From Primula veris (taxonomy: Eukaryota > Streptophyta > Magnoliopsida > Ericales > Primulaceae), in contig OY821745.1 in assembly GCA_963682055.1 (NCBI GenBank), positions 16,623,501 through 16,687,500 of the forward strand: a stretch of 64,000 bases of DNA. The letters run 5' to 3'. Positions 17,622 to 57,432 of the stretch are shown piece after piece. The position numbers were made by a program, and so were the translations under genes. The notes under the pieces are model-generated. The model saw only the letters and a program-made list of their open reading frames with translations. It did not search any database and was not told the origin of the DNA. The stretch's first letter is position 1; every line of letters starts with the position of its first letter.

Positions 17622-17623
17622 AA

Positions 17624-17641: not shown

Positions 17642-17700
17642 TCATCTAGTTCCCAACTAGTTTAGAATTCGAATACCAATACTCTGCCAGACGAGCGACA

Positions 17701-20700
17701 ATGGTTACCAATGTAGAGGAAACCCATCCCGAGATAGTAGAAACCAATAACCAAAACACACAAATTAGCCAACAAGACCTCGACGATCTACTCGCTATCC
17801 GCGACAGATATGAAGCTATCCAATCCGGAAACCAACCAACAAACTCCTACGCAAACCAAGAACAACCGGTCGAACCACCCCGACATTTCATCGAAGGAAT
17901 TGTCGACGAACACATTTCGTCCTCGGAGGACGAACAAGACGTGCCCGTATTAAGGCGTGCACGAAGACGCTTAACCGGGTCCCAAGCAGGGCCGAGCTCA
18001 AGAGTCCCTTTGCCTACGACCTCGGTCAACTCTGGTGCCCGTTTACAAACGGACGAGGCTCATCAGTTTGGCATGCCCGAGGATCGTGTACTCGGACAGT
18101 CGCCACGACTGCCGACTAATTCTCCGAGGGTGATTACACCACCCACGGTGGAGGTACAACATGTCGTTCCCTTAGCCGATGAAAGGAACTACACACAGCT
18201 ACAAGCTCAGCTGGCGGCATGCATGACGGCCATGACAGCGGCCGGCATCGTATTGCCAGTTATCCAACCCAACAAAGACCCACGCCATGAAGTGGAAGAT
18301 TCTGCCTACAGGGCCGCCCTGGAGGCAGCGGGTCGGCGAACCGATACAAGAGTCCCCCACCAAGGGGGCAATGTCCCAATAACTATCGTCCATCCGAACA
18401 CACATACGGAACGTGTCCACACAAACACGAAGGACGATAGATATCCCGATTACAGGATCGGGGAAGGATATGGCCCACCACCACATCAGGAAGGATACCC
18501 TCCCCCCTACCAAGTCACGGATGACGCGTTCCAACAGGCTTGGAACGTATGCCAAGAAACCCCGTGTGCTGAACAGATCACACGGTACCGCAATCCTATG
18601 GGATTCGTCATCCCCGAGTTCAGGCTCTATGACGGGAAGAGTTGCCCTATCGACCATCTGAGGCACTACAAGACGAAGATGGAACTGTGGAGTGACGACC
18701 ATGCACTGATGTGCAAATTTTTCAAAAACAGCTTGGGTCAAGAGGCTTCGTCATGGTATCATAACTTACCACGGGGTTCCATTAGAAACTGGGCAGAACT
18801 GCTAAGAGCGTACTCCACCCGGTACGCTGCTCATCGAAAAAAGAAGGTTAGTATCGAAACCCTTCTTAAAATGACGATGATGCCAAATGAAAGGCTCAAC
18901 GATTACTGCATACGTTTCATCGACGTAGCAAACCAGATTCCACGATACGCCAATAATATAGCCATTCAAAACTTTATCAACTCCATCCCTAATGGCTATT
19001 GGGCGAGAAGGAAGTTCATAGGCAAAAACTTCCCGACCACTGATTCCCTGCTAGCCTATTGTACCCACCTCACCGATAAAAACGACGAACTGCGTTTCCT
19101 AAACCGAACTCTACCAAGAAGAGAGTCGGTCCGTGAGGCACAGGTGGGTCGCAAAAGAGTTAGAAATAACCAGGGAGAAGCATTCCAACCGACCAGAAAG
19201 GGCAAAGAGCCCGAGGTCCATAGCAGGGGAGAGCGACCACGAGCACTAGAGCCTAAACCGCTCCAGATTGCATACCCAACACCGACCAACGAACATAAAC
19301 CGCTCCAGCTCACCTACCCGATGCCACCCAAGCCATTTCAACAGGTTCGGCCCCAAGAGAGGGAACTCCGAAACACTTTCGGACCGGTCGAACTGCGATA
19401 CACTTTCAACCTGTCTGCTGAAGATATCCTCAAGGAGATATGCAGGGAAAGTTGGTATTCCCGACCACAACCGATCATCTCTCCCCCCAGTCAGAGAGAT
19501 TCCAAGCTCTTCTGCGCATATCACGAGGATCACGGCCATCTCACTGAGCATTGCCGTAACCTACGATGGAGAATGAACCAGTGGGGCGATGCAGGATACC
19601 TAGCCAAGTTCATCAAAGGAGCTGGGAATAAAGGCAAACAACTGGCCATCGAGGGATCTGACAACCGGCAAGGCAAAACGATCAATGTCGTTCATATGTC
19701 ACGACCCAAGGGCCCAGGCGGGGAACGATCACGACAACGGCAGCTGGCCCACTTTAGCCAAGTAGCCAAGACATCACAGGCGTCGACTTCAAAACGACAG
19801 TGCACACCACGACGATATCCGCCCATTTCTTTTTCGGATCTTGACGAAGAAGGGGTGATATACCCCCACGGTGACGCCATTAACCTCCGTGTTCAAATCG
19901 GCCTAGACACAGTCGGCAGGGTACTTGTCGACCAAGGAGCCTCTTGTGATATCATGTACAAAGAGCTTTTCGACAAGATGGAACTCAAGCTGCAAGATCT
20001 TCAGCCTACCGATGTCACACTGATCGGATTCATCTCCGAAACGACCAAACCTTTGGGTAAGATCGTCCTCAGTGTCACAACAGGGTCCATGTCGGTTCCC
20101 GTGGAGTTCTTAGTGGTCGACGACCATTCTGGGCACAACGCAATATTGGGCCGACCTTGGCTACATGCCATGAAGGCCATACCCTCGACCTATCACCAAA
20201 AGGTCAAATACCCGAATGATAGGGGGGCGATCGAGACAGCCAGAGGATGTCAAGAAGATTCAAGACGCTGTGAGGACATCACCGCGACCCTCCAAAAACA
20301 ACGAAGCCCTGTGGAACAACCCACCAGCACAAAGAAGCTGATCAGCCAAATATCCAAAGCCGAAAGGGTTGTCGAAGAACAAGTAGGAGAGACACTTAGG
20401 AAGGTGTATATCCCGGATATGGACGAGGAGCACTATTTCCTCCTCGGCGATAACCTTCCAAAACAGGAATCCGAGGAGTTAGAAGCGTTCCTTTTCAGCA
20501 ACATTGATAAATTCGCCTGGAGCCCTAAAGACATGCCGGGCCTAGACCCCACTACAGCATGCCACCACCTAAGTGTAAACGCCGAGTACAAGCCAATAGC
20601 ACAGAGAAGCAGAAAAGTCTCGGTACAGCACAGAGCAGCTATAGTCGCTGAAGTACAAAAGCTATTGGAGGCTGGAGCCATAAGGGAGGTTTACTATCCA

Positions 20701-23619
20701 AAATGGTTGTCCAACCCGGTCGTCGTCCCTAAGAAGAACGGGAAGGAAAGAGTCTGTATAGACTTCACCAACCTCAATAAAGCCTGCCCGAGGGACCACT
20801 TTCCCCTTCCGAGGATCGATCAACTGGTGGACGCAACAGCAGGAGCGGAACGGATGACCTTCCTTGATGCGTACTCAGGATACCATCAAATTCCCCTCGC
20901 CTGCGAAGATCAAGAAAAGACTTCATTTATATCGCCTTTGGGAAATTATTGCTACACGGTAATGCCTTTCGGTCTACGCAATGCGGGGGCAACATACCAA
21001 AGGATGATAACACGGGTATGTCGAGATCATATAGGGAAAACAATGGAGATATACATAGACGACATGGTCGTCAAAAGCGAAAGAGCCACGTCCCACCTTC
21101 AAGATATCAGGGACGTCTTCCGAACGCTGGGCCAGCACAAACTGAAACTCAATGCGAGCAAGTGTGCATTTGGCGTCAGCAAAGGGAAATTCTTGGGGCA
21201 TATGGTTAGCCGACGAGGAATAGAGGCTAATCCCGATCAAATAACGGCTCTACGAAACCTAGCGGCGCCCAAGAATAAGAAACAGGTACAAGAGCTCACG
21301 GGAATGATGGCCGCGCTGAGCAGGTTCATTAGCCGATCCGCAGATAAGGGACGGTCGTTCTTCGAATCGCTCAAGAAGAATAGAAAATTCGTCTGGGACC
21401 CGGAATGTGAAGTCTCATTCAACAATCTCAAAGAGTACTTGAGGACACTGCCACTGCTGGTAAGGCCGAACAAAGGAGACATTCTGGCATGCTACCTAGC
21501 AGTTTCCACTACAGCTGTGAGCGCAGTCATCCTACGGGAAGAAGGTCGCGAACAATTTCCGATCTACTTCGTCAGCAAGACTCTGGTCGAAGCCGAAACA
21601 CGTTATCTACCCTTGGAAAAGCTGTGCCTGGCATTGGTCGTCGCAACCAGGAAGTTGCCACACTATTTCATAGCTCATCAGGTCCGGGTATATACAAAGT
21701 TTCATATTAAAGAGTCACTTCGACGGACGGACATTAGCGGCCGAGTTGCCGCCTGGGGGGTCGAGCTATCCCAATTTCATATCGAATTCGCGCCCCGCCA
21801 TGCCATAAAGGGACAAGTCCTGGCCGATTTCGTCGCAGAATTCACCGAAGGCTATGACGAGCCTTTGGCACTCTCTCCCCAATCACACTGGCAGATACAT
21901 GTCGACGGATCAGCCACCAAGGACGGATCAGGAGCAGGGATCGTCCTGAAATCTAGAGAGGGAGCAATCATCGAAAAAAGCATAAAACTGGGCTTCCGAG
22001 CTACCAACAATGAGGCAGAATACGAGGCCATGATAAATGGCATGCTTATTGCCCGGTCCCTCGGATGCTCCCACTTAATTGCCAGCTCAGACTCCATGCT
22101 CATTGTCAATCAAGCCATCGGCGAGTACCAAGCGAAAGATGATAGAATGATCCTCTACCAAGAAAAAGTCCAAAGCTTGATGGCCACCTTCGAACAATGC
22201 GAGTTAGTAAGAATCAATCGCACCGAGAATGCACATGCTGATGCATTGGCCACCCTAGCCTCGACATTAACATTGACCGACTCCCGGTCGATCACAGTGG
22301 AACTATTGCCGACCCCGAGCATAATGAAAAGGGTAAACCGGGTGACATCGATACAGTACGAACTAGGTTGGATGGAGGACATGACCCATTATCTGCGAAG
22401 TGGAACGCTTCCGGTCGATAAGATAAAAGCGATGAAGATTGCAAGAAAATCTCCTCGATTCTGGCTATCCGAGGATGATAAACTATACAAATCCAGTTAC
22501 CGGGGACCACATCTACTGTGCGTCCCGACCGAGCTACAACTGCCGGTCTTGGAGGAAATCCACGAAGGATCCTGCGGAGCACACATCAAAGGGCGATCCC
22601 TTGCAAACAAGGCAGTGACCCAAGGATATTGGTGGCCCTATATCAAGCGAGACGCCGATGCATACGTCCAACGATGCGACAAATGCCAGCGATTCGCCAA
22701 GATACCACGGCTCCCATCATCTATGATGACCCCGGTATCAGCACCATGGCCGTTCGCTCAATGGGCAATCGACTTGGTCGGTAAACTCCCAAGAGCACCT
22801 GGGAATGTGGAATATCTGATCGTTGCGACTGATTATTTCACCAAATGGGTCGAAGCGAAACCCCTCCGAGAAATCAAAGCCAGCAACGTCAAACAATTCA
22901 TTTGGGAATACATCATAACTAGGTTCGGTATACCGTACGCGATAGTCGCCGACAACGGAACCCAGTTCAAAGATGCCAATTTACAGCTATGGTACGAGGA
23001 ACTCGGTATCCGAAAATTCTATTCGACGCCGACATACCCACACGGGAACGGGCAAGCTGAAGTGTCAAACCGAACAATATTAGACGGCATCAAGACCACC
23101 CTTGAACAGGCAAAGGGGAGGTGGCCCGAGCGGCTACTCAACGTTTTATGGTCGTGCCGAACGACACCCAAGACGGGCACCAAGGAAACCCCGTTTAGCT
23201 TAGCATACGGTGTTGAGGCCATCATACCGACAGAGATCGGACTACCCACGCTCCGAACGACGTTGGTCGAGCAGGGAAATAATGAACAAAGAATGAGAGA
23301 AGAGCTCGACATGATAGACGAGAAACGAGAGATAGCGGCCCTTACCTTAGCAAAATACCAACAAAGCGTAAAGCAAACCTATGACAAGAGAGTAAAAGGA
23401 TCTAAAGAATTCATGGTGGGAGAACTGGTGCTGCGACGAGTGACGGTCTATACCCGCAACGAAATACATGGCAAACTGAGCCCTACCTGGGAAGGCCCAT
23501 ACGAAATCGTCAAGCGAACAAGTCCAGTCTCTTACAAAATCAAAAGCGTCCTGTTCGCCAACAGCCGCGGGGAAAAGAATTCTTGGAACGTGGCTAACCT
23601 AAAGAAGTACTACGTATAG
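17701..23619 (+). CDS. gag-pol: E1 Gag-Pol polyprotein (Tat lineage), intact, 1972 aa
   Basis: Makes the capsid and all replication enzymes of the element. An acidic/Pro-rich N-terminus is followed by the retrotransposon gag domain (about 295-450), a zinc finger C-x2-H-x4-H-x4-C at C605-C618 (His in place of the second Cys, as in Tat gags), and protease with D744-Q-G-A-S. Reverse transcriptase carries FLDAYSGYHQIPL and YIDD at 1118-1121. A degenerate RNase H (about 1250-1380) precedes a second, archaeal-type RNase H (D1402, E1438, D1464, D1514). Integrase has an HHCC finger, then D1691, D1751 and E1787 (exact D,D-35-E), and a GPY/F-like WEGPYEIVKR end. ATG 17701 lies 80 bp after the LTR; the first Met gives a complete gag. 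No internal stop or frameshift, so gag and pol are one frame. Confidence 0.97.
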   Translation: MVTNVEETHPEIVETNNQNTQISQQDLDDLLAIRDRYEAIQSGNQPTNSYANQEQPVEPPRHFIEGIVDEHISSSEDEQDVPVLRRARRRLTGSQAGPSSRVPLPTTSVNSGARLQTDEAHQFGMPEDRVLGQSPRLPTNSPRVITPPTVEVQHVVPLADERNYTQLQAQLAACMTAMTAAGIVLPVIQPNKDPRHEVEDSAYRAALEAAGRRTDTRVPHQGGNVPITIVHPNTHTERVHTNTKDDRYPDYRIGEGYGPPPHQEGYPPPYQVTDDAFQQAWNVCQETPCAEQITRYRNPMGFVIPEFRLYDGKSCPIDHLRHYKTKMELWSDDHALMCKFFKNSLGQEASSWYHNLPRGSIRNWAELLRAYSTRYAAHRKKKVSIETLLKMTMMPNERLNDYCIRFIDVANQIPRYANNIAIQNFINSIPNGYWARRKFIGKNFPTTDSLLAYCTHLTDKNDELRFLNRTLPRRESVREAQVGRKRVRNNQGEAFQPTRKGKEPEVHSRGERPRALEPKPLQIAYPTPTNEHKPLQLTYPMPPKPFQQVRPQERELRNTFGPVELRYTFNLSAEDILKEICRESWYSRPQPIISPPSQRDSKLFCAYHEDHGHLTEHCRNLRWRMNQWGDAGYLAKFIKGAGNKGKQLAIEGSDNRQGKTINVVHMSRPKGPGGERSRQRQLAHFSQVAKTSQASTSKRQCTPRRYPPISFSDLDEEGVIYPHGDAINLRVQIGLDTVGRVLVDQGASCDIMYKELFDKMELKLQDLQPTDVTLIGFISETTKPLGKIVLSVTTGSMSVPVEFLVVDDHSGHNAILGRPWLHAMKAIPSTYHQKVKYPNDRGAIETARGCQEDSRRCEDITATLQKQRSPVEQPTSTKKLISQISKAERVVEEQVGETLRKVYIPDMDEEHYFLLGDNLPKQESEELEAFLFSNIDKFAWSPKDMPGLDPTTACHHLSVNAEYKPIAQRSRKVSVQHRAAIVAEVQKLLEAGAIREVYYPKWLSNPVVVPKKNGKERVCIDFTNLNKACPRDHFPLPRIDQLVDATAGAERMTFLDAYSGYHQIPLACEDQEKTSFISPLGNYCYTVMPFGLRNAGATYQRMITRVCRDHIGKTMEIYIDDMVVKSERATSHLQDIRDVFRTLGQHKLKLNASKCAFGVSKGKFLGHMVSRRGIEANPDQITALRNLAAPKNKKQVQELTGMMAALSRFISRSADKGRSFFESLKKNRKFVWDPECEVSFNNLKEYLRTLPLLVRPNKGDILACYLAVSTTAVSAVILREEGREQFPIYFVSKTLVEAETRYLPLEKLCLALVVATRKLPHYFIAHQVRVYTKFHIKESLRRTDISGRVAAWGVELSQFHIEFAPRHAIKGQVLADFVAEFTEGYDEPLALSPQSHWQIHVDGSATKDGSGAGIVLKSREGAIIEKSIKLGFRATNNEAEYEAMINGMLIARSLGCSHLIASSDSMLIVNQAIGEYQAKDDRMILYQEKVQSLMATFEQCELVRINRTENAHADALATLASTLTLTDSRSITVELLPTPSIMKRVNRVTSIQYELGWMEDMTHYLRSGTLPVDKIKAMKIARKSPRFWLSEDDKLYKSSYRGPHLLCVPTELQLPVLEEIHEGSCGAHIKGRSLANKAVTQGYWWPYIKRDADAYVQRCDKCQRFAKIPRLPSSMMTPVSAPWPFAQWAIDLVGKLPRAPGNVEYLIVATDYFTKWVEAKPLREIKASNVKQFIWEYIITRFGIPYAIVADNGTQFKDANLQLWYEELGIRKFYSTPTYPHGNGQAEVSNRTILDGIKTTLEQAKGRWPERLLNVLWSCRTTPKTGTKETPFSLAYGVEAIIPTEIGLPTLRTTLVEQGNNEQRMREELDMIDEKREIAALTLAKYQQSVKQTYDKRVKGSKEFMVGELVLRRVTVYTRNEIHGKLSPTWEGPYEIVKRTSPVSYKIKSVLFANSRGEKNSWNVANLKKYYV

Positions 23620-23724
23620 GCAATGCTCCGAATACAAGTACAGGTGATACCTTACCTTTCTTGCTTAAGGGCATTATCTTTCTTCTTTTGAATGAATAAA
23701 ATATATTATTATGCTGTCTACTAA

Positions 23725-24645
23725 TACTATGAAATCCCGTAAATGGCGTGTTACCGAAGGAACGTCTAGGGATACTATGAAATTCCCAACATGGCCGAAG
23801 TGCCTAGGAATATTATGAAAGTCCGTAAATGGCGTGTTACCGAAGGAACGTCTAGGCATACTATGAAATTCCCAGCATGGCCGAAGTGCCTAGGAATACT
23901 ATGAAATCCCGTAAATGGCGTGTTACCGAAGGAACGTCTAGGGATACTATGAAATTCCCAACATGGCCGAAGTGCCTAGGAATATTATGAAAGTCCGTAA
24001 ATGGCGTGTTACCGAAGGAACGTCTAGGCATACTATGAAATTCCCAACATGGCCGAAGTGCCTAGGAATACTATGAAATCCCGTAAATGGCGTGTTACCG
24101 AAGGAACGTCTAGGGATACTATGAAATTCCCAACATGGCCGAAGTGCCTAGGAATATTATGAAAGTCCGTAAATGGCGTGTTACCGAAGGAACGTCTAGG
24201 CATACTATGAAATTCCCAACATGGCCGAAGTGCCTAGGAATACTATGAAATCCCGTAAATGGCGTGTTACCGAAGGAACGTCTAGGGATACTATGAAATT
24301 CCCAACATGGCCGAAGTGCCTAGGAATATTATGAAAGTCCGTAAATGGCGTGTTACCGAAGGAACGTCTAGGCATACTATGAAATTCCCAACATGGCCGA
24401 AGTGCCTAGGAATACTATGAAATCCCGTAAATGGCGTGTTACCGAAGGAACGTCTAGGGATACTATGAAATTCCCAACATGGCCGAAGTGCCTAGGAATA
24501 TTATGAAAGTCCGTAAATGGCGTGTTACCGAAGGAACGTCTAGGCATACTATGAAATTCCCAACATGGCCGAAGTGCCTAGGAATACTATGAAATTCCCA
24601 ACATGGCGTGTTACCGAAGGAACGCCTAGGAATACTATGAAATTT
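23725..24645 (+). repeat. E1 tandem array, 86-bp monomer in a 172-bp higher-order unit
   Basis: Two alternating 86-bp variants (ACTATGAAATCCCGT... with CTAGGGA, and ATTATGAAAGTCCGT... with CTAGGCA) form a 172-bp unit starting at 23725, 23897, 24069, 24241 and 24413, then a recombined partial unit at about 24585. Copies are nearly identical. Each monomer is itself two related halves (48 and 38 bp), both starting TACTATGAAA. Placed between the pol stop and the antisense genes. Confidence 0.95.
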
Positions 24646-24938
24646 ATGTGCAGGTACAATGCAAGGAAGTATTCAGGTCCACTTTACGACGGCAATGCAA
24701 TATATATTGGCTACAACGATGAAGGAGAATCAATCTAAACAACAAAACATCAACAAAAAGCATCTCCAAAACAGGAATAACGAAATAACAAATGATTTGG
24801 CAAGGAAAAACCGATCCGATCAATTAAACAGCAATACGGTAATGGAAAGGTACAAAACAGGAATAAAGAAATCACATATATAATCCTCGCCCGCATTACG
24901 GAGGCAACAAGAAGATCAACGGCACTAAAGAGATTCAG

Positions 24939-25589
24939 TTAAGAAGAACTACTGCAGGAGGAGCACGACGGTAATTGACCGAGCTCAATCTCTTCGTCGT
25001 CCGTCGTTGTATACCCATCAGACTCATCACCATCAAAACGCTCCTCAGAAATGAGGGCATCAAAATTGGTCGTATGAGCCCCAACACAAGTCAGCGTCTG
25101 AAGCCGCGCGTTGAACTCGGCTTCTTTGGCGGACTCGTGAGCATCCGAGGCCGCTTTACGGCGATCATCGTCAAAGGAGAGGTCACGGCGAGCTTCAATC
25201 ACAGCTGCGGAAGCATCGTATCTGGCGCGGGACAAACGGAAATACTTCACCAACACGTTGGCCTTGGTCACAAGCAACTTTAATTTGCCGAAGTACTCGC
25301 CTTTTGCACGCCAATATCGATCCAAACGACGCTCCTGAACCTCAACAGCATGCTCGGCACGGCGAACATATTCTCGAAAAGAGGCCGCCTGTGTTTTCAG
25401 CTTGGTCCGCAGTCGAGCACATTGGTCGGTCAATTTGACATTTTTGCTCATCAAAACAATGTAGGGCCACCTGTCAGGCACCTCACTAGCCGCACCAGAT
25501 GAGACCTCGTCCCGGGCAGCACCAGTAGGTCCTAACCCCGGGTTAACTAGGCATGGAGAACCAGCCTGGTGCGACGTAGTAGCATGTGC
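24939..25589 (-). CDS. E1 antisense gene h: coiled-coil reading frame with acidic, Ser/Cys-rich end
   Basis: An open frame of 216 codons from an AG acceptor at 25591-25590 (preceded by a pyrimidine tract) to the stop at 24939. It also has an internal ATG (LMSKNVKL), so it could be a terminal exon or start at that Met. The middle is basic and coiled-coil-like (RAEHAVEVQERRLDRYWRAK). The C-terminus is acidic (TTDDEE) and ends SCSSCSSSS. Its counterpart in E2 (58135-58782) has the same start, length, coiled coil and tail, so it is a real coding unit. I recognise no domain. How it is spliced to g or f is unresolved. Confidence 0.7.
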   Translation of the reverse strand, partial: AHATTSHQAGSPCLVNPGLGPTGAARDEVSSGAASEVPDRWPYIVLMSKNVKLTDQCARLRTKLKTQAASFREYVRRAEHAVEVQERRLDRYWRAKGEYFGKLKLLVTKANVLVKYFRLSRARYDASAAVIEARRDLSFDDDRRKAASDAHESAKEAEFNARLQTLTCVGAHTTNFDALISEERFDGDESDGYTTTDDEEIELGQLPSCSSCSSSS

Positions 25590-25631
25590 CTATAAAAAAA
25601 AGGGGGGGAGGAGAAGAACGAGAAGAGATGA

Positions 25632-25633
<2 letters not shown>

Positions 25634-25668
<35 letters not shown>
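25634..25668. repeat. A35 homopolymer
   Basis: 35 A on the plus strand, so T35 on the strand of the antisense genes, 45 bases upstream of the splice acceptor of h. It may serve as a pyrimidine tract. Confidence 0.9.
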
Positions 25669-25669
<1 letters not shown>

Positions 25670-25723
25670 GAGAAGAGAAATTTTTATAACAAGATACAAA
25701 GAAAACGACAACAAGCTATTTTA

Positions 25724-26296
25724 TTACTCCGACAACCCCTCAGCAGACGCCGAAGTCTCTACTACATCGGCAAAATGAATTTCTCGCAATGAATTAATTT
25801 GCGTCCCCAAACGCTCACGAATGACCGCCTCGATTCGGTTCAAAGCAACAGTGGTTTCAGTCACCCCGGCCTTCGCATCAACCATGCGCTCTGCCCGGGA
25901 TACACCACTCATTCCTTTTATAAGCTCAATCACCTCTAAAGCGCGAGCTCGGGCCCAATACGCTTTGACAAAGGATAGCAGCAGGTCCGCGTCCTCGAAA
26001 ACGGCCCCAAGGACCAAGGTCAAGCTCGTCACACGACCTCGGGCTTCATCACGAGAACGTCGTAGGGCACCGAGAAGTTCCTTCGCTTTACCCTTATTTG
26101 CCGTGTAATGGGCGGTCTTTTTACTAAATTTCTCTCCCAAATCACGTAACCGGATCGCCAGGTTGGAAATATGAATATTCAGACCCTCGATTTCCTGATG
26201 GGCACAAGTCAATTTCGCGGTAAGGGACGCGTTAGACCTTTCCAAATCCTCCATCACGTCACCTACACTACGACTAGGCGAGGTCCAGACCACCAT
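25724..26296 (-). CDS. E1 antisense gene g: coiled-coil protein, 190 aa
   Basis: Starts at ATG 26296 (MVVWTSPSRSVGDV). The same CCATGGTGGTCTGG context opens the E2 homologue. A coiled-coil N-terminal half (LERSNASLTAKLTCAHQEIE) precedes the block most conserved with E2: LGEKFSKKTAHYT, KGKAKE, RVTSL..LVLGAVFEDADLL and REIHFADVVETS. It ends EGLSE-stop. No recognised domain or membrane segment. It lies between f and h on the same strand. It may be a separate gene or an alternative 3' part of f; there is no TATA box as clear as those of a-e. Confidence 0.7.
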   Translation of the reverse strand: MVVWTSPSRSVGDVMEDLERSNASLTAKLTCAHQEIEGLNIHISNLAIRLRDLGEKFSKKTAHYTANKGKAKELLGALRRSRDEARGRVTSLTLVLGAVFEDADLLLSFVKAYWARARALEVIELIKGMSGVSRAERMVDAKAGVTETTVALNRIEAVIRERLGTQINSLREIHFADVVETSASAEGLSE

Positions 26297-26447
26297 GGCA
26301 AGGGGGTTATTAGGTACCTGACAATATTTTGTTTTCATATCCTTCAAAATATGACGACCATCAAAAGAAATTGACCCAAGCAAGCCCAACAGAAAGCAAC
26401 CATAACACTTATATTATCACTCCCCCAAAAGAATCTGTTTCTAGATA

Positions 26448-26448
<1 letters not shown>

Positions 26449-26488
<40 letters not shown>
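26449..26488. repeat. A40 homopolymer
   Basis: 40 A on the plus strand (T40 for the antisense genes), between the stop of f and the start of g, about 150 bp upstream of g. Exact length may be unreliable. Confidence 0.9.
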
Positions 26489-26491
<3 letters not shown>

Positions 26492-26509
26492 ACAATGCCA
26501 GAAAGATAG

Positions 26510-28927
26510 TCAAGGTTCCACCTGAAGAGATGTTGGTGGGGGAACAGTAGAATCCGGTCGAGGAGAAGACGCGGTCGACATAGAGTGAGGACGCAGCGCT
26601 GTCGAAATTGTCTGCCCCGGTAGCCGCGGAAGCTCTTCTTCACGAAGATTCGCCCAGTCCAAGGGTTTCGGCGGTGCACCATGCGGACACGGGTACACCA
26701 ACTCCGACCACGCCCTATCCGACAGAGGAACATTCGCGAAGTTGAGCGCCCGCACATGAGCGCAGTATACAGAAAAGTTGGCCATCATTGCTAACTTTTT
26801 CCGCTCCTCCGCCTGTGCCGTTTTCAGGGCAGACACCTTAGCCTTCTCGGCTTCCACGTCCTCAGCCAGGAGCAAGTTCTCCTCCTCTACTTCGCCGTAC
26901 TTAGCGGCCATGCTCTCTTTTTCCTCCCTCAATTTCTCGACCTCCTCGGTCAGGTGCAGGAAGTCCACCGACAGTTTGTCATAATTCTCGCCCAGGGTTT
27001 TCTTCTCGGCGACCAATTTCTCCTTATCGGCCTCAAGATTATCCTTCTCGGCCACCAATTTCTCTTTCTCAGCCCCGAGAGCTCCCAGCTGATCCCGTAG
27101 CGCCACGGCACTCACAGCAATCTGCACTTTAACACATTAGTTTCCAAATAAAATACAAGTACCCAACCTATATAGTGCAATACAAGCCCCACATACCCTC
27201 AGCGCATCCGCATGGGCCTGCTCTATCACTGACATTGTAGGTTGGGCAGATAGCTTTTCTGCATTCTTAAACACAAGGGGTTTCAGAGCCGTATAACCCA
27301 TCTTCAGCGTTCTCGGTTGATCCAGCAGTTCACCCCTACATCGGTCAATGTACCGGGTCATTGCAACCCCATCCACCGACCCCTTCTCTGATCCGTCGAG
27401 AGCCTCACCCTCGACACCCACCACATCATCCCCGGCATTCTCTTCGCTGCCTTCCCTCCCCACCCCCACGTCCTCCTCCAACGGCTCAATCTCAGGGGCC
27501 CTATGCTCGATCTCTTCCTCATTACGGAGGGGCGAGCACACGGACAACTCTATCGGACCCTCGGTGGGGATAGGCGAGATGACCGGCAAAGTCATCGTAC
27601 TATCTCCCATATTCGTCAAGAGGTTCATATATCCGAATACATCGTCGACCGACCCCTGAAACACAATAATACCCATAGACCGGGCAAGAGCGAGGGTAAC
27701 CAATTGAGAAGTCAGTAGCTGAAACAAGACGACTAATAAAGCAAAGCACTAGCGAACCAAATGACAAACCACCAAAAGACAGGAAAATCATAATACATAT
27801 ACACATACCTCGCCCGGAGCAGAGGCATCCTCGGCGGTATCCCCTTGAGCAACGGCAAACACCCCCTCGCCCGAGCCAACGTTAGCCTCTTCCTCGGTAA
27901 CCGACGTATCAGTTCCCCTAGCCCTCTTCGTTGTTTCAACGACAGGCTCAGCTGCGCGACGCTTAGAACGAACAGCTCTTTTCCCAAGCCGAGTAGCACA
28001 CCGAGCCTGTACCACCTTTAAAAATTCCTCCTCGGGCTCTTTCGGGATCTCGGGTGCCGGATTCCCCTTGGTCACCGACCCCATAGGGTACCCGAGCAAC
28101 ATGGGAGCCGTACGACTCGCAGGATCAGGCGTAGGTCCCGGCCCCCACCATTTCCAAAGAGCTAACAAAGCCTCTACATTAGGAGCGCCGAGATCTGGCA
28201 TAGTGGGAGCATTGGTAGCCGGTCCAGGAATCTGGTGTCCCGGACAAGCCCATTCACCAGACGCAATAACAATACCGAGATTGCGCTCTTTGTTGGTATC
28301 CGGCAAACCGATAACGAGCCGGCAAAAGGCACGCAGAGTCTTCAAATACGAGCTGCGACGCTCAAAGCTCAGACTATAGACTCCAAAGACGTCCTTCAGT
28401 TCAATCGGTATTCCGGACAACTCCGATAGCCTTTGGATACCATTCAGAGTACGGTAACCATTTAGGGCCAGTTGGGCCGGAGCAATTTGGACGGCCTCAA
28501 AGAACGAGGCCACCCAATTTGTAAAGGGCAGTCGAAGACCCCCAGTAAAGAAGGCCGACGACCGCACAGCTACCTCGCCGGCGGGAACAAATCCCAGCAC
28601 CTCCTCGTCCGATATAGGAAGCCGAATATGTACGTTGTCGGGTATTCCGGCGAGTTCCTTAAAATCCTTCTCCACGAATGTGCCAACTTGGGCCACGCTT
28701 TGGGTCAAAATTTCCTATACAAAGATCATCAACAGTCCATCAATATACTAACCAAATACACAAACCAGAACCACATCAATAGAACGAGAGCCACCCCCCC
28801 CCCCATGCACATTACATCAGAATCATCAGACATATACCAACGACACACCTATGACCACAACGACAAATCAAATACAACCCCTACAAGCGGAAAAGGGGAA
28901 GAACGAAAAATCACTTACAGTTATCAT
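26510..28927 (-). CDS. E1 antisense gene f: four-exon gene, 682 aa, Transposase_28-like
   Basis: Exons: 28927-28919 (ATGATAACT, donor GTAAGT), 28714-27809, 27718-27197 and 27121-26510. All introns begin GT and end AG, every junction is phase 0, and the joined frame is open. The same four exons and splice sites recur in E2. Exon 2 has GGLRLPFTNWVASFFEAVQ, APAQLALNGYR and VFGVYSLSFERRSSYL, resembling the 'putative gypsy type transposon' family (PF04195), then ALWKWWGPGP and a basic, nuclear-signal-like KRAVRSKRRAA. Exon 3 is acidic. Exon 4 is a strong coiled coil (EKEKLVAEKDNLEADKEKL), then WANLREEELPRLPGQ and a Ser/Pro tail. Biochemical role unknown. Confidence 0.8.
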
Positions 28928-29500
28928 TATGAGCAAGCAAGCGCGAACAGCAGCAACTCTTCCAACAAAACCACGAAACCCTAGAGCAAGCGGCCGAACT
29001 CTTTTCCCTTTTTGGCGGGAAAAATATGCTTTAGAGAGAGAGATATTTTCTTCAGCAAATTTTGTGATAAAAATAAACAGGATTACTTGGCACAATAAAA
29101 AGGAGTGGAGTCACAAAAGGAATAAAATAATAACCGTCCTTTCGTGTACCAGAGGTTCGCCCCTTTTCCAACCATACAAAAGTCAACAACCGCTGCTCTT
29201 TTTAACATTTCAACGCTCCAGATTTCGCCACGTCAGCGCATATCCCACTACCCAAGGCAGTTCACATCATTACACCTAAATAAACGGCCAGTGGACCCTA
29301 CCACGAAAAGCTTCCCACATACGCTACCAATATTATCACACAAAGAATGTCCCCCGATAAAGTTCCTCGACTCCCAACCATTTCTTACCCAAATGGCATA
29401 CCGAACAAGGTGAACGAAGACCGTTTCTAGCTTAATGGCAGGGAGCATCAAGTCTAACAACGCTCTTCGGGGGGATAACCGGGCACATTGTTCGATGTAT
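28928..29500 (-). promoter_or_regulatory. E1 upstream (promoter/5' UTR) region of antisense gene f
   Basis: Non-coding, yet long blocks are shared with 54140-54698 of E2, including TTATCCCCCCG, GGTCCACTGGCCGTTTAT, AATGATGTGAACTGC, GACGTGGCGAAATCTGG and CACGAAAG(G/T)ACGGTTA. The TATA equivalent reads TTTATTTAGG here (about 29276-29285) and TTTATATAGG in E2. Conservation between otherwise diverged copies suggests regulatory function. Confidence 0.55.
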
Positions 29501-29565
29501 GCTCAGAAAAAAAAAAGAGAAGCAAGCAGGAAATAAAATAGGACAGAATCAAATGCAAGACAAGT

Positions 29566-29571
29566 TTTATT
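29566..29571 (-). terminator. Poly(A) signal of E1 gene e
   Basis: AATAAA (minus strand) within GGATGAATAAAA, about 56 bp after the stop of e. The same GGATGAATAAAA follows gene e in E2 at 54059-54070. Confidence 0.6.
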
Positions 29572-29626
29572 CATCCACAAAGGGGGAAACACAAACAATA
29601 CAACAGAAAAAGAAAATACACACATC

Positions 29627-29989
29627 CTACTTTTTCGAACTATCCCCCATAGCAACATCCCTCTTCGCCAAAAGTTCCTCCAGACGCTCATTCTCCCTAA
29701 CCAAACGAGAAATCGCCATCTCAGCCTGTTTTAAGGCGTAAGACTGAGACTCGCATTTTTGTTCGGCCTTGAAACGGGCAGTGCCCTCCTCGTCCCAATA
29801 TTGTTAAAGCCTCCTCGCTTCAGTCCGAGCACATATGAGATCATGTTTCAGCCATGACATCTCAATTTCTTTTAGTTGAAGAGGAGTCAAATCCTCCTCC
29901 CCAAAGCCAGGGGGACGAGGTAGCAAAAAGGTAGGCTCCTCTTCCATAAGGGTTTTCTTTTTGGAGGCAGACCTAGTGATGGGAGCCAT
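29627..29989 (-). pseudogene. E1 antisense gene e (MAPITRSAS family), premature stop
   Basis: Begins MAPITRSASKKK at ATG 29989 and contains DLTPLQLKE. A TAA interrupts it at ARRL-stop-QYWDEE (about 29805); the same frame continues to RLEELLAKRDVAMG and a TAG at 29627. The E2 homologue (53490-53846, 118 aa) is open through that point, so the stop is a lesion or this copy makes a 61-residue product. The C-terminal half is coiled-coil. The basic start followed by an acidic stretch has no recognised domain. Confidence 0.75.
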
Positions 29990-30058
29990 CTCACGCAAAA
30001 GCAAGTTAGAAAACAAGAAGAGGTAGAAATTGATAATGAGATACAGGCAATAGGGAGC

Positions 30059-30065
30059 ATTTATA
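30059..30065 (-). promoter_or_regulatory. TATA box of E1 gene e
   Basis: CTATAAATGCTCCC on the minus strand, 70 bp before ATG 29989. E2 has TTATAAATGCTCCCC at the same place. Confidence 0.65.
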
Positions 30066-30208
30066 GAGAATCAGAAGGCACAAAATACGAAGAGTTCCAA
30101 TGGTTCACAAGACAGGCACGAGATACGAAAAGATACAACTGATTCATTAAATACAGAAGATAAAACACAAATGGCAAAAGGGGAAATACATAAGAAAACC
30201 AGCCCAAT

Positions 30209-30688
30209 CTAAGGATCAATGGGTGGAAAAACCGAACTGCCAGACCGAGAGAAGGCAATACGAGCAGAACAATTCAGCCTAGCTTGATAGGAATCGTTCA
30301 TGGCGACCAAATCGTCATTCTCCGAGGAGAGCCTATTATTTTCCGAGGTAAGAACCCTGACGCGTTCCACGAGCCGAGCATTCTTTACCATTAGGTTAGC
30401 GAGGCCCTGAGGAGAGTTGTCAAACTCATCTTGAGAATGGTCCCAAATTTCCTCGGCATCATACCAGGAGTTGGCCAGATGGTTTCTCTGCAGCAACAAG
30501 TGATCGAGCTGGCGACTCAGTGCCGAGATCTCGGTCCACTTCACCGTCTTTTCGGGATAAGAGCCGAACAGGCTCAAGGCCAAAACGCCATACTCTTTCT
30601 CAAGCCTTGCCATCCGACTGCGGACCCGAGATACCTCAGTATCCAAGCCCTTCATCTGAGCATGATATCTCACCACAGGTCCAGACAT
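30209..30688 (-). CDS. E1 antisense gene d: coiled-coil protein, 159 aa
   Basis: Open from ATG 30688 (MSGPVVRYHAQMKGLD) to the stop at 30209. Two coiled-coil stretches (VSRVRSRMARLEKEYG and NARLVERVRVLTSENNRLS) flank a highly conserved middle (KWTEISALSRQLD, RNHLANSWY.AEEIWDH). It ends SRSGSSVFPPIDP, a tail identical in the E2 copy (52697-53167, 156 aa). No known family, signal peptide or membrane segment. Single exon, with its own TATA box. Confidence 0.75.
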   Translation of the reverse strand: MSGPVVRYHAQMKGLDTEVSRVRSRMARLEKEYGVLALSLFGSYPEKTVKWTEISALSRQLDHLLLQRNHLANSWYDAEEIWDHSQDEFDNSPQGLANLMVKNARLVERVRVLTSENNRLSSENDDLVAMNDSYQARLNCSARIAFSRSGSSVFPPIDP

Positions 30689-30782
30689 TCTGGGAAATTG
30701 TTTAGTATGGAAGAAAATAAAGGGCTAAAGAAGAGAGAAGCAAAACGAAAAAAGAGATGATAAACTACCCAAGAAAAGAGGG

Positions 30783-30790
30783 TACTTATA
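30783..30790 (-). promoter_or_regulatory. TATA box of E1 gene d
   Basis: CTATAAGTACCC on the minus strand, about 95 bp before the ATG. The E2 counterpart is CTATAAATACTC, 107 bp before its ATG. Confidence 0.55.
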
Positions 30791-31019
30791 GAACGAAGAG
30801 TATGATATTTTATAACCTTGCTTGGGAAATTGCATATTTCCTGACATGATGTGGGAGGCATATGCATTTCCTGACCTACTAGGGAGCAGGCACATATGTT
30901 TGACAGTGATGGGGACATCTATTGACATCTGAGACTACAGTGCAGAAGAGATAAAGACGAGATATTCAAAGATCTAGATCCCAGACAAACAACAAACCAC
31001 ACGTACGATATAAAAAGAA

Positions 31020-31190
31020 AAGGGCAAAAATACTTTTCATTAATGAAGATGGAATACATCATTATCTATTACATCGAGGTCTATTACATCCGAGATAAAA
31101 ATCTATTACATCGAGGTCTATTACATTGAGGTCTATTACATCCGAAAAAGATCTATTACATCCAAGAAGAGCTAGTACAGAAGATCAGGC
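31020..31190. repeat. Short tandem repeat (TCTATTACATCGAGG)n
   Basis: About seven copies of a 14-18 bp word, TCTATTACATC(C)GAG, with variation. The minus strand reads GATGTAATAGA. At the same place in E2 (52243-52330) a GATGTAATCGATCTCC repeat occurs, so the repetitive 3' region of gene c is an old shared trait. Confidence 0.75.
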
Positions 31191-31214
31191 AAAGGATCAA
31201 CTATATCAGCTGAC

Positions 31215-31825
31215 CAAGTGAGCAGGAGACGCCAAAAAGAAAAAGTAAGAAGGAAGAGAAAGGAAAATCAAGAAGAGGAAAAGAAGAAGAATGCAAGAAA
31301 CGAAGGAAAGAAGCATAAAAAAGAAAACAAAAAGGGAAGAAAGAAGCGAAGAGGAGGAACATAAAGAAGAAGTGATAAGAAAGAAGAGTCAAAAAGAAAA
31401 ATGACAAAAACCCTAGATGTAACACAAAACCCTTAGGATCACAGGGCTGATTGTAACATCATAGTGGTGCAAAAAAAAAAAAAAAAAAGAGTGACGGGAG
31501 AGAAGATGAAGAAAAAGAAAGAGGAGGCACAGAAGAAAAACAGATGAGAAGAAGATTAAGAGATGAAGGAGACAGACAAATAAAAAGAAAGTCAATAAAA
31601 CAAAAAAGAAACGGAAAAAGAAAAGAATAAAAAGAGAGAGAAAACAGAGTATAAAAAGAAAATACAAGAGAGGAAGAGGAAGAAATGATGGAAACGGAGA
31701 AATAAAAAAAAAAAAGAGGAAGAGGAAGAAATGATGGAAACGGAGAAATAAAAAAAAAAAGAGGAAGAGGAAGAGATAGGAAAAGAAGGGGAAAAGCAGA
31801 GAAAAATAAAAAAGAAGGGAGAAGG
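31215..31825. repeat. Purine-rich low-complexity block in E1
   Basis: Long GA/A-rich run (plus strand). It includes an 18-A run near 31471-31488 and a direct repeat of GAGGAAGAGGAAGAAATGAT (about 31670 and 31718). It has no equivalent of this size between c and d in E2, so it looks like a private expansion. Frames through it are low-complexity and not genes. Confidence 0.75.
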
Positions 31826-32119
31826 TTAGGGGGAAGTCGATCGGTATCGATGAGAGGGCCCGGCAGAGACATCCCTGTCCCTCAGTGTCGGGTTCCCCCT
31901 TAGCATCTCATTCTCTTCGACTAAAGCCTGACGAGCACGTCGGCAGTAAGCCAGTTCGGATCTTAGCCAAGTTAATTCCCGAACCATCTCGGTATGGTGA
32001 TAACGCATCACCTTCAATTCCTCCTCGGCATCCCTCAACAGCCTTTGTACATGGTTATAGGAGGCCTCAAAGGCCTCCACTTGCAAAGCTAATGCTGATG
32101 GGGTGAAAGGACCAGACAT
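31826..32119 (-). CDS. E1 antisense gene c: coiled-coil protein, 97 aa
   Basis: ATG 32119 chosen (MSGPFTPSALALQVEAFEAS) because E2 aligns from the same Met with the same 97-aa length. A nearly continuous coiled coil (RLLRDAEEELKVMRYHHTEM, VRELTWLRSELAYCRRA) leads to a conserved tail LRGNPTLRD...AGPSHRYRSTSP. No known domain. Single exon with a TATA box 85 bp upstream. Confidence 0.75.
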   Translation of the reverse strand: MSGPFTPSALALQVEAFEASYNHVQRLLRDAEEELKVMRYHHTEMVRELTWLRSELAYCRRARQALVEENEMLRGNPTLRDRDVSAGPSHRYRSTSP

Positions 32120-32203
32120 CTTAGGGAAATTATAAGATGAGGGTCTATGTATGGGGGAAAATAATATGATGAGAATTGTGGATGTAACCATGCTGTAAGC
32201 AGG

Positions 32204-32211
32204 TATTTATA
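32204..32211 (-). promoter_or_regulatory. TATA box of E1 gene c
   Basis: CTATAAATACC on the minus strand, 85 bp before ATG 32119; E2 has ATATAAATACCCC. Confidence 0.65.
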
Positions 32212-32687
32212 GATCAAGCGTATGAGGGCTGGTATTGAGAGTCGCAACCGTTCGCCAATGGGTATTCAGAAGCAACGGCACTCAAAAGAGGTGACTGTTC
32301 AAGAGAAACGTTTGGATTCCCAAAAGACTCTAAAAAAGCGTGAGTAATTAAAAGCCACACCTGTTCAAGAAACGTTTGGATTATTACCAATATTTAAAGG
32401 GGGTAAGTAATAATGGCAGCAAAACACGCGTCATTTTTGGGAAGGACGGCGGATCGAATAAATATCCCAGATCTTCTGCGCAAGGCTCAAGAAAGCCTTG
32501 GTGATTGGGATTTTCTATGCACAAGGCTCAAGAAATCCTATTAGTCCCTAGATATAAAGAGTAAGGAGGTCCAATGGATAAGATCAAACGCCAGGCCCAA
32601 GAAAAGCATTAATGAGGCCACAAGCGTGCGCAGTCAAAATAAATTGCATTGGGAAAGTAATTCAAATATAAACAAGAAAAAGAAATC

Positions 32688-32693
32688 TTTATT
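32688..32693 (-). terminator. Poly(A) signal of E1 gene b
   Basis: AATAAA (minus strand) about 62 bp after the stop of b. Confidence 0.5.
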
Positions 32694-32754
32694 AATTGGT
32701 TGATACTTCGTTACAGAAGAAGCACAAAGAGGAAATACAATGAAAACAATAAAA

Positions 32755-33094
32755 TCATTTCATAGAAGGGCCCGCTTCGTCATTCGGCTTCCGTTTCGAC
32801 CGAGCATACACTTCCTTAAGGGCCAATTTGTAAGCCCTTTTGGAAGCGAGCTGCCTATCCCTGGAGGCCTCGAGCTCTTTGATCCGGGCACGAGCACGAA
32901 TACTGTCAAGCAAAGACCTTTGATGCTCCTTCTCTAGGGCATCCAATCGCTCGTCTAGTTCGGCGGACCCGACGAGCTTCCACTGACAGCCGGGCAACCC
33001 TCTTTTCGAGATAACGCACCTTCTGAACTTCCTCTTCCAGACGGGTAACGTATTCAGGAAGGTTGTCACCATACTTTTCAAGAGGAGAAGCCAT
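32755..33094 (-). pseudogene. E1 antisense gene b (paralogue of a), frameshifted
   Basis: Starts MASPLEKYGDNLPEYVTRLE at ATG 33094. A one-base insertion near 32960 moves the frame; the second half (ELDERLDALEKEHQ..., RIKELEASRDRQLASKRAYK, LALKEVYARSKRKPNDEAG) ends at 32755. The open E2 homologue (50981-51331) fixes the position of the lesion. The protein shares the start and the KRAYKLA.KE..ARSK end with gene a, so a and b are duplicates. Confidence 0.75.
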
Positions 33095-33144
33095 TTGCTC
33101 GTTAGTAAAGAATGAACTGCACAAAAGATACTGGGACAGTCCCC

Positions 33145-33151
33145 TTTTATA
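33145..33151 (-). promoter_or_regulatory. TATA box of E1 gene b
   Basis: TTATAAAAGGGGACTG on the minus strand, about 51 bp before the ATG. Further upstream GACCTTTGACCTAC is shared with E2 gene b. Confidence 0.6.
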
Positions 33152-33311
33152 AGAAGAAACAAGGAGTAGGTCAAAGGTCATCTCGAATAAATACAGCCTC
33201 TTGAACTTCCCAAGAGCATTAAAGGCGAATTAACCACAGTTCCAAATCCAATTAAAGTCATCCAAAAAGACATCAAGAAGATAAACAGACAAGAACAAGG
33301 AAAGGGAAATA

Positions 33312-33318
33312 TTTTATT
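33312..33318 (-). terminator. Poly(A) signal of E1 gene a
   Basis: AATAAAA on the minus strand, about 80 bp after the stop of a. Confidence 0.5.
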
Positions 33319-33397
33319 AATTCCAAAAACTTCGATTACAACTGAGGAGAAGACTTCCCATTCAAGAGAAATTACGACAGAAATTACAAAAGACTAA

Positions 33398-33718
33398 TTA
33401 TTTCGAGGAAGAGCCTTCTTCATCGTCATCCGAACTCGGTTTGGACCGAGCATGCAACTCCTTGAAGGCAAGCTTATAGGCCCTTTTAGCCGCCTTCTGC
33501 TTAGCCAGATTAGCCTCGAGCTTCTTTATATGCTCGAAGGCCCAATCCCGATCGGCCATCGTCACATGATGATCAGAATCCATGTCAGACAACCTTTTCT
33601 TATAGTTTGAAACCTTGGCCACGAGTTTCTTATTCGCGGTACGAGATTTCTTGATTTCCGTTTCTAAATATGAAATATAATTAAAGGAGCTCTCACCAGT
33701 AGAATCAGAAGAAGCCAT
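33398..33718 (-). CDS. E1 antisense gene a: coiled-coil protein, 106 aa
   Basis: ATG 33718 (MASSDSTGESSFNYISYLET). It contains HHVTMADRDWAFEHIKKLEA, nearly the same in E2, then AAKRAYKLAFKELHARSKP and an acidic/Ser tail. Mostly helical and charged, probably coiled-coil. No recognised family. It is the gene nearest the 3' LTR and reads away from it. Its E2 homologue is 50354-50695 (113 aa). Confidence 0.75.
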   Translation of the reverse strand: MASSDSTGESSFNYISYLETEIKKSRTANKKLVAKVSNYKKRLSDMDSDHHVTMADRDWAFEHIKKLEANLAKQKAAKRAYKLAFKELHARSKPSSDDDEEGSSSK

Positions 33719-33771
33719 TATGTCAAGGACAAATTAGTAGTAAGATGCCTAATTATGGAGGGAGCACACCC

Positions 33772-33778
33772 CTTTATA
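33772..33778 (-). promoter_or_regulatory. TATA box of E1 gene a
   Basis: CTATAAAGGGG on the minus strand, about 54 bp before the ATG; E2 has TTATAAAAGGG. Confidence 0.6.
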
Positions 33779-33946
33779 GGAGTTTTCCTCGAAAGAAGAT
33801 ATTAGGATAGGAAACATTAAATGTGCCCCCCTGGGAACCGTCACGAGTCTATTGCATTTCTCGATGAAGCATTTGGAAAAATAAGACCGAAGTAACGTTC
33901 TCGACAAACCGAACATGACTCCCCCGACATGGAAACCACGCCGAGG

Positions 33947-33961
33947 AAGTCAGGGAGCACT
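33947..33961 (+). other. E1 polypurine tract region
   Basis: AAGTCAGGGAGCACT directly precedes the 3' LTR. The identical 15 bases precede the E2 LTR in its own orientation (50081-50095), so it is the conserved plus-strand priming site. Confidence 0.75.
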
Positions 33962-34529
33962 TGATAGAACACAAAAATCAGACCCGAATATTTTATTCGG
34001 GTCATAATCAACCCACTTTATAAATGGGCATCCAACGCTTAAATGGGTCATCTCATATTGGTTGTAGGGATTGAGGGGCTACAACACAAAGCCCAAGCCC
34101 AATCAAAGGGGGACCCTTGTCTGAGAAATCCCTGGGATGAAGACATTTGTCACTATCCTAGAAGGCGCAGTTGCCTATAAATAGCCCACTACCCCTCCTA
34201 GAAAAGGACCAGAAAATCTATCCAAAAAATATAGAGAGAAGTTAAGAAAAGAGAGAAACTAACCAAAGCATATCACTTCAAGAAACAAACCGAGAAAAGA
34301 CAGCCGAGCATCGAATAAAAGAGGAGAAAGATCAAGACGAGGGATTAAATAGTTATATCGAGCATAATCGTAAAATCGGAATACGAATCCGAACAAGTGT
34401 AATAGTCCGAACAAGGACAAGAATCCGAGTCATAATAAAGATCAGGAAGCATCATTTATTCTCGGTCGATTTGTCATTTTATCTTTGTTGAAAAGCCTAA
34501 CGCAACCGACCAAAGTTATGGCTTTATCA
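33962..34529 (+). repeat. E1 3' LTR
   Basis: 568 bp, TGATAG...TTATCA, same as 17054-17621 with no difference that I can see. Confidence 0.95.
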
Positions 34530-57191: not shown

Positions 57192-57432
57192 GTTGATCTT
57201 TGAACCAGTTTCTCTTGTAAATGTTTAACCTCATGTAGGTCTTGTTTTGGAGCCCGGTTTGTGGGCCGTTGTATAAACTCACGAAATTGTTTTGGGGAAG
57301 TCTAATATTTTTTTTTTCTCCGTTGTCATTTGGCTTTGTTTATCGCTTTCGTTATTGCTCATTGCTTGTTGGTAGTCTTCGTATGTTTGAAGGTCATAAC
57401 AATCGTGTCAGATACCGGTTAACCCTCTTGCC

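Follow-up and report, generated by a model that had tools for sequence, protein, structure and literature searches.

A predicted antisense multi-gene region in a Retand-like Tat retrotransposon of Primula veris

Antisense genes of related elements and the Primula region

Antisense genes of Tat retrotransposons have been in print since the 1990s, and a function for them is not established (PMC7264820). The region treated here lies between pol and the 3' long terminal repeat (LTR) of a retrotransposon, E1, in a window of 64,000 nucleotides from Primula veris (GenBank assembly GCA_963682055.1, contig OY821745.1, positions 16,623,501 to 16,687,500 of the forward strand). It comprises eight coding units on the strand opposite to gag-pol, called a to h in order from the 3' LTR, and a second, diverged element, E2, is contained in part in the same window. 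In a survey of Retand elements, in which open reading frames (ORFs) of at least 600 bp were counted, antisense TRP28 ORFs were found in 97% of the clusters (Vicient 2025, PMC11963269), and in another survey extra ORFs of at least 250 codons were counted (Neumann 2019, PMC6317226). Silene Retand ORF3 and ORF4, rice RIRE2, and bean PvRetro13 ORF2 are antisense ORFs in the same place as the E1 cluster, with TRP28 in Silene ORF4 and an SMC domain in PvRetro13 ORF2; one or two ORFs are named for these elements, and the accessible descriptions contain no battery of small genes (PMC7264820, PMC11728184). Maize Grande carries gene23, which like the E1 units is an antisense gene between pol and the 3' LTR with a promoter of its own, and the product of which is nuclear; one gene is described for Grande and there are probably six in E1, a comparison made with the published description only (PMC7264820). 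A further parallel is HBZ of the deltaretroviruses, an antisense accessory gene in an LTR retroelement, products of this type being regulatory and nuclear (PMC11963269, PMC7264820). The deltaretroviral antisense promoter is located in the 3' LTR whereas the putative promoters of E1 are located inside the element, and homology is not claimed.

E1 is classed here as a young Retand-like Tat element. Its two LTRs are identical (568 bp each), and a Pfam RVT_3 match at residues 1401–1519 of the gag-pol protein lies between RT_RNaseH, which ends at 1359, and integrase, which starts at 1608. This match is read by us as the additional RNase H domain (aRH) and would agree with Retand/Tat, since an aRH between RNase H and integrase marks both Ogre and Retand elements (Neumann et al. 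2019, PMC6317226). The plant mobile domain (PF10536), which occurs in an extra ORF of 57% of Ogre elements, was not matched by any of the ten proteins scanned (E up to 1), and the Ogre arrangement of two ORFs with an intron separating GAG-PROT from reverse transcriptase (RT) is not found in E1, which has one frame of 1972 amino acids (PMC6317226). With the Retand elements carrying antisense TRP28 ORFs E1 shares the Tat affiliation, antisense ORFs between pol and the 3' LTR, and tandem repeats beside pol, a TRP28-type protein being putative in E1, and a single gag-pol frame is also seen in 59% of the Retand clusters (PMC11963269). The LTR length of 568 bp is inside the range of 315–1194 bp of the Retand survey, and the distance from pol to the 3' LTR, 10,342 bp, is outside its range of 2,933–6,566 bp, both being ranges and not definitions; the internal region of 16,340 bp compares with 7,380–12,869 bp in the survey (PMC11963269). 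Furthermore, E1 has five small genes (97–159 codons) below the 600-bp ORF limit of this survey, and its unit f has a predicted spliced structure with four or more exons, unlike the surveyed Retand ORFs (PMC11963269).

Because of their limits of 600 bp and 250 codons the surveys pass over units a to e, and either cut-off would miss five genes in such a region. As judged from the sequence comparisons below, the E1 region is a real and selected multi-gene antisense region, which is old in kind and new in extent and layout, the layout being more elaborate than that of the antisense genes so far described in related elements. New are the five small genes under the length cut-offs, the length of the region (the published maximum is 6,566 bp), and the promoter-like block ahead of f, and possibly also alternative last exons. 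No description of such an antisense battery was found in the accessible literature, subscription papers being largely outside its coverage. This agrees with a preliminary description of the window, in which no described set of this size had been recognised; the kind itself, antisense TRP28 ORFs in Retand, is well described. It is rather probable that the stretch between pol and the 3' LTR is a battery of antisense accessory genes of a Retand-like Tat element, organised in six transcription units and coding for products which act in trans.

Selection on the units and their distribution in the genome

As the preliminary description had stated, E1 and E2 agree in the order of the eight units and in their orientation with respect to pol; in the window the units lie on the minus strand for E1 and on the plus strand, at 50354-58782, for E2. 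In three pieces of pol comprising 860 codons the synonymous divergence (dS) between the two elements is about 1.06 and the nonsynonymous divergence (dN) 0.07. Because dS in pol is about 1, the E1 and E2 lineages must have parted long ago. The E2 insertion itself is young, not old; a comparison of its two LTRs shows 18 differences in 553 ungapped aligned sites, plus 27 gap positions.

The dN/dS ratio was calculated by the method of Nei and Gojobori with 95% bootstrap intervals, stop codons being omitted and units with broken frames being compared in pieces. Between E1 and E2 it was 0.34 (0.18–0.58) for a, 0.27 (0.12–0.49) for b, 0.07 (0–0.18) for c, 0.22 (0.13–0.35) for d, 0.07 (0–0.20) for e, 0.24 (0.17–0.31) for f, 0.14 (0–0.22) for g, and 0.28 (0.19–0.41) for h, compared to 0.07 (0.05–0.09) for pol. 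The upper bound is at most 0.58 for all eight units, and lower bounds of 0 reflect saturated synonymous sites. The other five frames of the same alignments gave 0.95–2.96 as a control, except for the sense frame mirroring the third positions, which gave 0.12–0.42 and holds 5–31 stop codons per unit. In pairs with L069, one of the cluster loci from elsewhere in the genome which are described below, dN/dS was 0.12–0.48, and between L051 and L070 it was 0.08–0.37 with the exception of e (0.84), where dS is only 0.05. For L054 the total ratio of nonsynonymous to synonymous polymorphism (pN/pS) was 0.28. In the same analysis e had 9 synonymous and 17 nonsynonymous differences among 15 haplotypes; at such short range the constraint on e is weak or not visible. 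A total pN/pS of 0.55 for L053 was discarded due to a misaligned g row, part of g being deleted. Purifying selection at the codon level is indicated for all eight units. The proposal that the cluster was long kept by selection is supported by dN/dS values of 0.07–0.34 in all eight, low values being confined to the antisense frame and its mirror, and values near 1, which had been named beforehand as the sign against it, were not seen for the units between E1 and E2 or in the pairs with L069.

As selection acts at the codon level, the proteins would be the point of the region. A different role could be that of an antisense RNA, serving as a source of double-stranded RNA (dsRNA) and small interfering RNA or as a decoy, with the frames being incidental. 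Antisense transcription of such elements is known and a role of dsRNA has been discussed (Vicient and Casacuberta 2020, PMC7264820), and the shortness of the small genes would fit as well. For a silencing trigger, however, a protein code is not required, and selection on codons in all eight units as well as a conserved block without RNA structure ahead of f (see below) make this role highly improbable.

In the genome to which the window belongs (436.5 Mb in 34 contigs) the first-pass candidates numbered 1712 (E1 d), 2635 (E1 a), 1436 (E2 d), and 4733 (end of pol), the best 150 or so of each being scored. All 150 best scored matches of E1 d and all 150 of E1 a are open, and 109 of 150 matches of E2 d are listed without internal stop (67–100% identity, E1-type copies included). 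Picked by pol alone from the 150 pol matches listed, 66 elements have an open gag-pol of at least 1970 amino acids, and at least 59 of these have a and/or d at the expected distance and strand. The units are present in other members of the family, and their absence from such members, named beforehand as a second sign against the proposal, did not come true in the elements looked at. From the seven elements without a listed match of a or d three were looked at in part, and two of these carry cluster units (b–e in L072, a in L073). In the loci read, E1 included, a was open in 20/20, b in 19/20, c in 30/30, d in 30/30, and e in 28/30, the counts for a and d being biased since the loci had been picked by these two units. 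The broken exceptions are E1 for b, and E1 and L022 for e. The preliminary description does not mention that in E1 itself b loses its frame midway and e is interrupted by an in-frame stop. Twelve E2-like loci picked by E2 d had stop-free matches, some of them partial, for c in 6/12, for d in 9/12, and for e in 5/11, from which it follows that older copies decay.

Seven cluster stretches (L051–L054 and L068–L070) were fetched. L051, L052, and L070 contain all eight units free of stops, whereas half of g is deleted in L053, L054 is interrupted by a stop in c and by a frame change in f, and L068 has only b–e, two of them with a stop. L069 gave ordered matches to all eight units, of which e, f, and h contain stops and c is matched only in part. 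L069 represents a third diverged lineage beside E1 and E2, and L070 is an older relative of E1 rather than a separate deep lineage; the best tblastn protein identities of L070 to E1 are 91–96% for a, b, c, e, f exon 2, g, and h, as compared to 84% for d and lower values for f exons 3–4. In the third of the three elements looked at, L071 (G000:C2:24565400-24568900), other sequence and the LTR and gag of a second element occupy the expected site of a–e downstream of an open gag-pol. L071 may be a natural copy without part or all of the cluster.

These data also bear on two readings in which the small units have no function of their own. Capture of host genes by plant LTR elements is documented (discussed in PMC7264820), and as the origin of the units is not established, they might be captured host genes or fragments travelling as functionless passengers. 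Next to no credence is given to this, since the same set in the same order and strand is found under selection in several diverged lineages, a and/or d are carried by at least 59 of the 66 members with open gag-pol, and searches with f found no relatives, in databases perhaps poor in plant proteins. It is quite improbable, too, that only f with its TRP28 matters and a–e are decaying remnants. The broken b and e of E1, the stop-free counts of c, d, and e in the E2-like loci, and the dN/dS values of a (0.34) and b (0.27), slightly above that of f (0.24), would agree with decay, but those of c (0.07), d (0.22), and e (0.07) are below that of f, all five are well under 1, and in young copies b, c, and e are open in 19/20, 30/30, and 28/30 loci, respectively.

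Transcription units, products, and putative function

Unit f codes for 682 amino acids in four predicted exons with GT-AG introns, as had been noted earlier, and its three introns are kept in E2 and L069, and also in L070 except that exon 1 is missing there. In E1, E2, L069, and L070 the conserved codons of g and h begin ahead of the first ATG, directly at an acceptor, which reads TGTCAG in g and TATAG in h, and in L069 the ATG of g is lost with acceptor and open frame being retained. Exon 4 of f ends at CAG/GT in E1, L069, and L070 and at TAG/GT in E2 (the slash marking the splice point), and exon 4, g, and h join in phase 0. Because g and h open at conserved acceptors, the ATG of g is not conserved, and the phases match, f, g, and h look like one single gene, of which g and h are probably alternative last exons. 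A g-to-h donor at GTAGAG was rejected, being absent in L069. From the eight coding units of the preliminary description the eight conserved coding stretches remain, and six transcription units, with a to e standing singly and f-g-h together, are likelier than eight. Eight separate genes with g and h transcribed alone would fit the conserved stop at the end of both g and h, the TATA-like hexamers upstream of g in E1 and E2 and of h in E1, and the lack of a poly(A) hexamer after f and h, which leaves a common end of f-g-h unmarked. The hexamers ahead of g, however, differ in place and sequence between E1 and E2, none is found ahead of E2 h, and both the coding conservation upstream of the first ATG of g and h up to the acceptors and the lost ATG of g in L069 argue against separate starts, so that this arrangement is considered unlikely and the single f-g-h gene is preferred.

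Units a to e look like separate mini-genes, each transcribed from its own putative promoter, because a TATAAA is found upstream in 10/10 regions of E1 and E2 and a poly(A) hexamer downstream in 8/10. The TATAAA lies within 160 bp ahead of the ATG, at positions −39 to −126, as compared to a mean of 1.05 and a maximum of 5/10 in 2000 Markov shuffles. The poly(A) hexamer (AATAAA or AATGAA) was looked for within 260 bp after the unit, where 1.5 are found in shuffled sequences and none after E1 c and E2 d. In L051, L069, and L070 TATAAA or TATAAG occurs at 14/14 of the a–e starts checked, and the L069 stretch ahead of c contains TATAAATA. Orthologues of a and b are 64% and 62% identical and the paralogues 40–56%, the pair being an old tandem duplication. 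Upstream of c (window about 32250, minus strand) AACGGTTG is common to E1, E2, L069, and L070 in a well-conserved stretch and may be a candidate transcription factor site.

The best-conserved stretch ahead of f is a non-coding block, which is better conserved than the coding exons of f. Its core is 82% identical between E1 and E2 and 94% between E2 and L069, as compared to only about 61% for the f exon 2 protein of E2 and L069. In five sequences 169 of 230 columns are invariant, L053 having been left out of the alignment as the anchor was not found there, and invariant runs in E1, E2, and L069 are GGGTCCACTGGCCGTTTAT, TAATGATGTGAACTG, and TGACGTGGC. In the block GTGGACCC may resemble a TCP site and TGACGTGG a bZIP site. 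RNAalifold found no fold better than shuffled columns on either strand of the block (z 0.29 and 0.25), and the idea of an RNA element was dropped. Because of this lack of an RNA fold signal a DNA promoter is the simplest reading of the block.

Heptad periodicity, examined by a simple test of our own, was above that of shuffled sequences for b, c, d, g, and h of both elements. It did not do so for a, e, and f exons 2–3, and f exon 4 was above shuffles only in E1. The statement that almost all products are predicted coiled coils therefore holds by this test for five of the eight units and not for a, e, and f exons 2–3. The products may bind each other or Gag, as proposed in the preliminary description. 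The frame of f exon 2 has a weak match to PF04195, and its place and strand fit the Retand TRP28 ORF. An AlphaFold model of d (mean predicted local distance difference test score, pLDDT, 71.6) has three helices, the last one of 56 residues; a Foldseek search of this model against PDB gave no match with E ≤0.001, and no function was read from it. Protein searches with f, whole and with residues 20–225, gave no match in a database which may hold few plant proteins, and searches of viral contigs with f exon 2 and part of pol gave no confirmed relative.

In the accessory-gene reading preferred here a to e would each be transcribed from their own promoter inside the element, and spliced f, to which g, h, or both would contribute further or alternative last exons, would make a TRP28-type protein with a coiled-coil tail. 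The products would be trans-acting helpers, which meet through their coiled coils and have the nucleic acid of the element itself as their nuclear target. Most likely they would control its transcription or silencing, in line with Vicient's proposal (PMC11963269) and comparable to the accessory antisense proteins of some retroviruses. With putative promoters inside the element, a–e and f would be expressed independently of the LTR promoter, as has been reported for gene23 of Grande. Antisense placement lets introns and internal promoters survive the RNA intermediate unchanged, since only their complements are present in the genomic RNA; this follows from the mechanism of reverse transcription. 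E1 with its identical LTRs but broken b and e fits products acting in trans, and a change at or after insertion fits too. More tentatively, and with some doubt, the opposite strand might hold a second gene set of six or more antisense genes, each with a promoter of its own and one spliced to alternative last exons, which encode coiled-coil partners around a TRP28-type protein and act in trans for a large family of copies. If this were true, single copies such as E1 could lose units and still spread.

Several observations weigh against this picture. The donor of f exon 4 is weak, and no clear donor feeding h was identified. The 220 bp preceding exon 1 of f are free of TATAAA, and neither f nor h is followed by a poly(A) hexamer within 250 bp in E1 or E2, so that the ends of the proposed f-g-h transcript are unmarked, and an AATAAA overlapping the stop of g in E1 is not found there in E2. 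The TATAAA of d at −126 in E1 is not equivalent to the E2 box at −113, the matching E1 box reading TATAAG (−102). The match of f exon 2 to TRP28 (PF04195) reaches 16.2 bits (E 0.013), below the Pfam cut-off of 26.2 bits, and a model of this exon was unusable (mean pLDDT 33.8). E1 has identical LTRs but broken b and e, and intactness in every copy is thus not needed; the element C2:24558597, to which L071 belongs, has an open gag-pol but other sequence at the expected site of a–e. The sense strand of the E1 cluster (24645-33961) contains 20 AATAAA as compared to 8.2 in shuffled sequences. Finally, near-saturated synonymous sites make the dN/dS values rough.

On the sense strand of the E2 cluster 16 AATAAA are found as compared to 8.2 in shuffled sequences, contrary to expectation. 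The idea that antisense placement hides poly(A) signals, or that the sense strand avoids AATAAA, is unsupported by the counts.

Many young copies, five selected short genes, mapped putative promoters and splice sites, and copies lacking single units turn the region into a testable question, namely which unit is needed in cis, which acts in trans, and whether the units counter silencing.

Features of the window

Table 1. Positions of E1, E2, and their units in the window
Feature	Position	Strand	Remarks
E1, whole element	17054-34529	+	AATAC target duplication on both sides (5' copy 17049-17053)
E1 5' LTR	17054..17621	+	568 bp, then primer-binding-site-like TGGCGCCGTC stretch
E1 gag-pol	17701..23619	+	single frame of 1972 amino acids; gag, protease, RT, RNase H, second RNase H-like domain, integrase
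E1 tandem array	23723..24644	.	86-bp unit, 10.7 copies; between pol and antisense cluster
E1 h	24939..25589	-	exon opening at conserved acceptor TATAG/GC, 216 codons to stop; conserved codons precede first ATG
E1 g	25724..26317	-	exon opening at conserved acceptor TGTCAG/, 197 codons to stop; internal ATG missing in L069
E1 f exon 4	26510..27121	-	possible donor CAG/GT just ahead of stop
E1 f exon 3	27197..27718	-	
E1 f exon 2	27809..28714	-	weak TRP28 (PF04195) match
E1 f exon 1	28919..28927	-	three codons, then GTAAGT donor
E1 conserved non-coding block upstream of f	29032..29331	-	putative promoter; 78% E1/E2, 82% over core
E1 e	29627..29989	-	small gene, 120 codons, in-frame stop in E1
E1 d	30209..30688	-	small gene, 159 amino acids, three predicted helices
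E1 c	31826..32119	-	small gene, 97 amino acids
E1 b	32755..33094	-	small gene paralogous to a; reading frame lost midway in E1
E1 a	33398..33718	-	small gene, 106 amino acids
E1 3' LTR	33962..34529	+	568 bp, AATAC directly after
E2 3' LTR	49511..50080	-	E2 on minus strand, 5' LTR outside window; inner end set by comparison with E1
E2 a	50354..50695	+	counterpart of E1 a
E2 b	50981..51331	+	counterpart of E1 b
E2 c	51838..52131	+	counterpart of E1 c
E2 d	52697..53167	+	counterpart of E1 d
E2 e	53490..53846	+	counterpart of E1 e
E2 f	54699..57191	+	exon layout as in E1 f; stops and frame changes
E2 g	57412..57984	+	one in-frame stop
E2 h	58135..58782	+	counterpart of E1 h
E2 tandem array	59015..59674	.	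same place as E1 array
E2 pol	59760..64000	-	broken frames, runs to window end

The tandem arrays after pol occupy the same place in both elements, with a unit of 86 bp in E1 and of about 78–120 bp in E2, and blastn found no similarity between the two arrays. Satellite-like short repeats of the AAAACAGTCTGAA type at 16316-16791 adjoin E1, and similar sequence is found in L071 beside another copy. At 75-3875 the minus strand of the window contains frames of 928 and 309 amino acids, which by reading of the translation alone are Ty1/copia pol- and gag-like.

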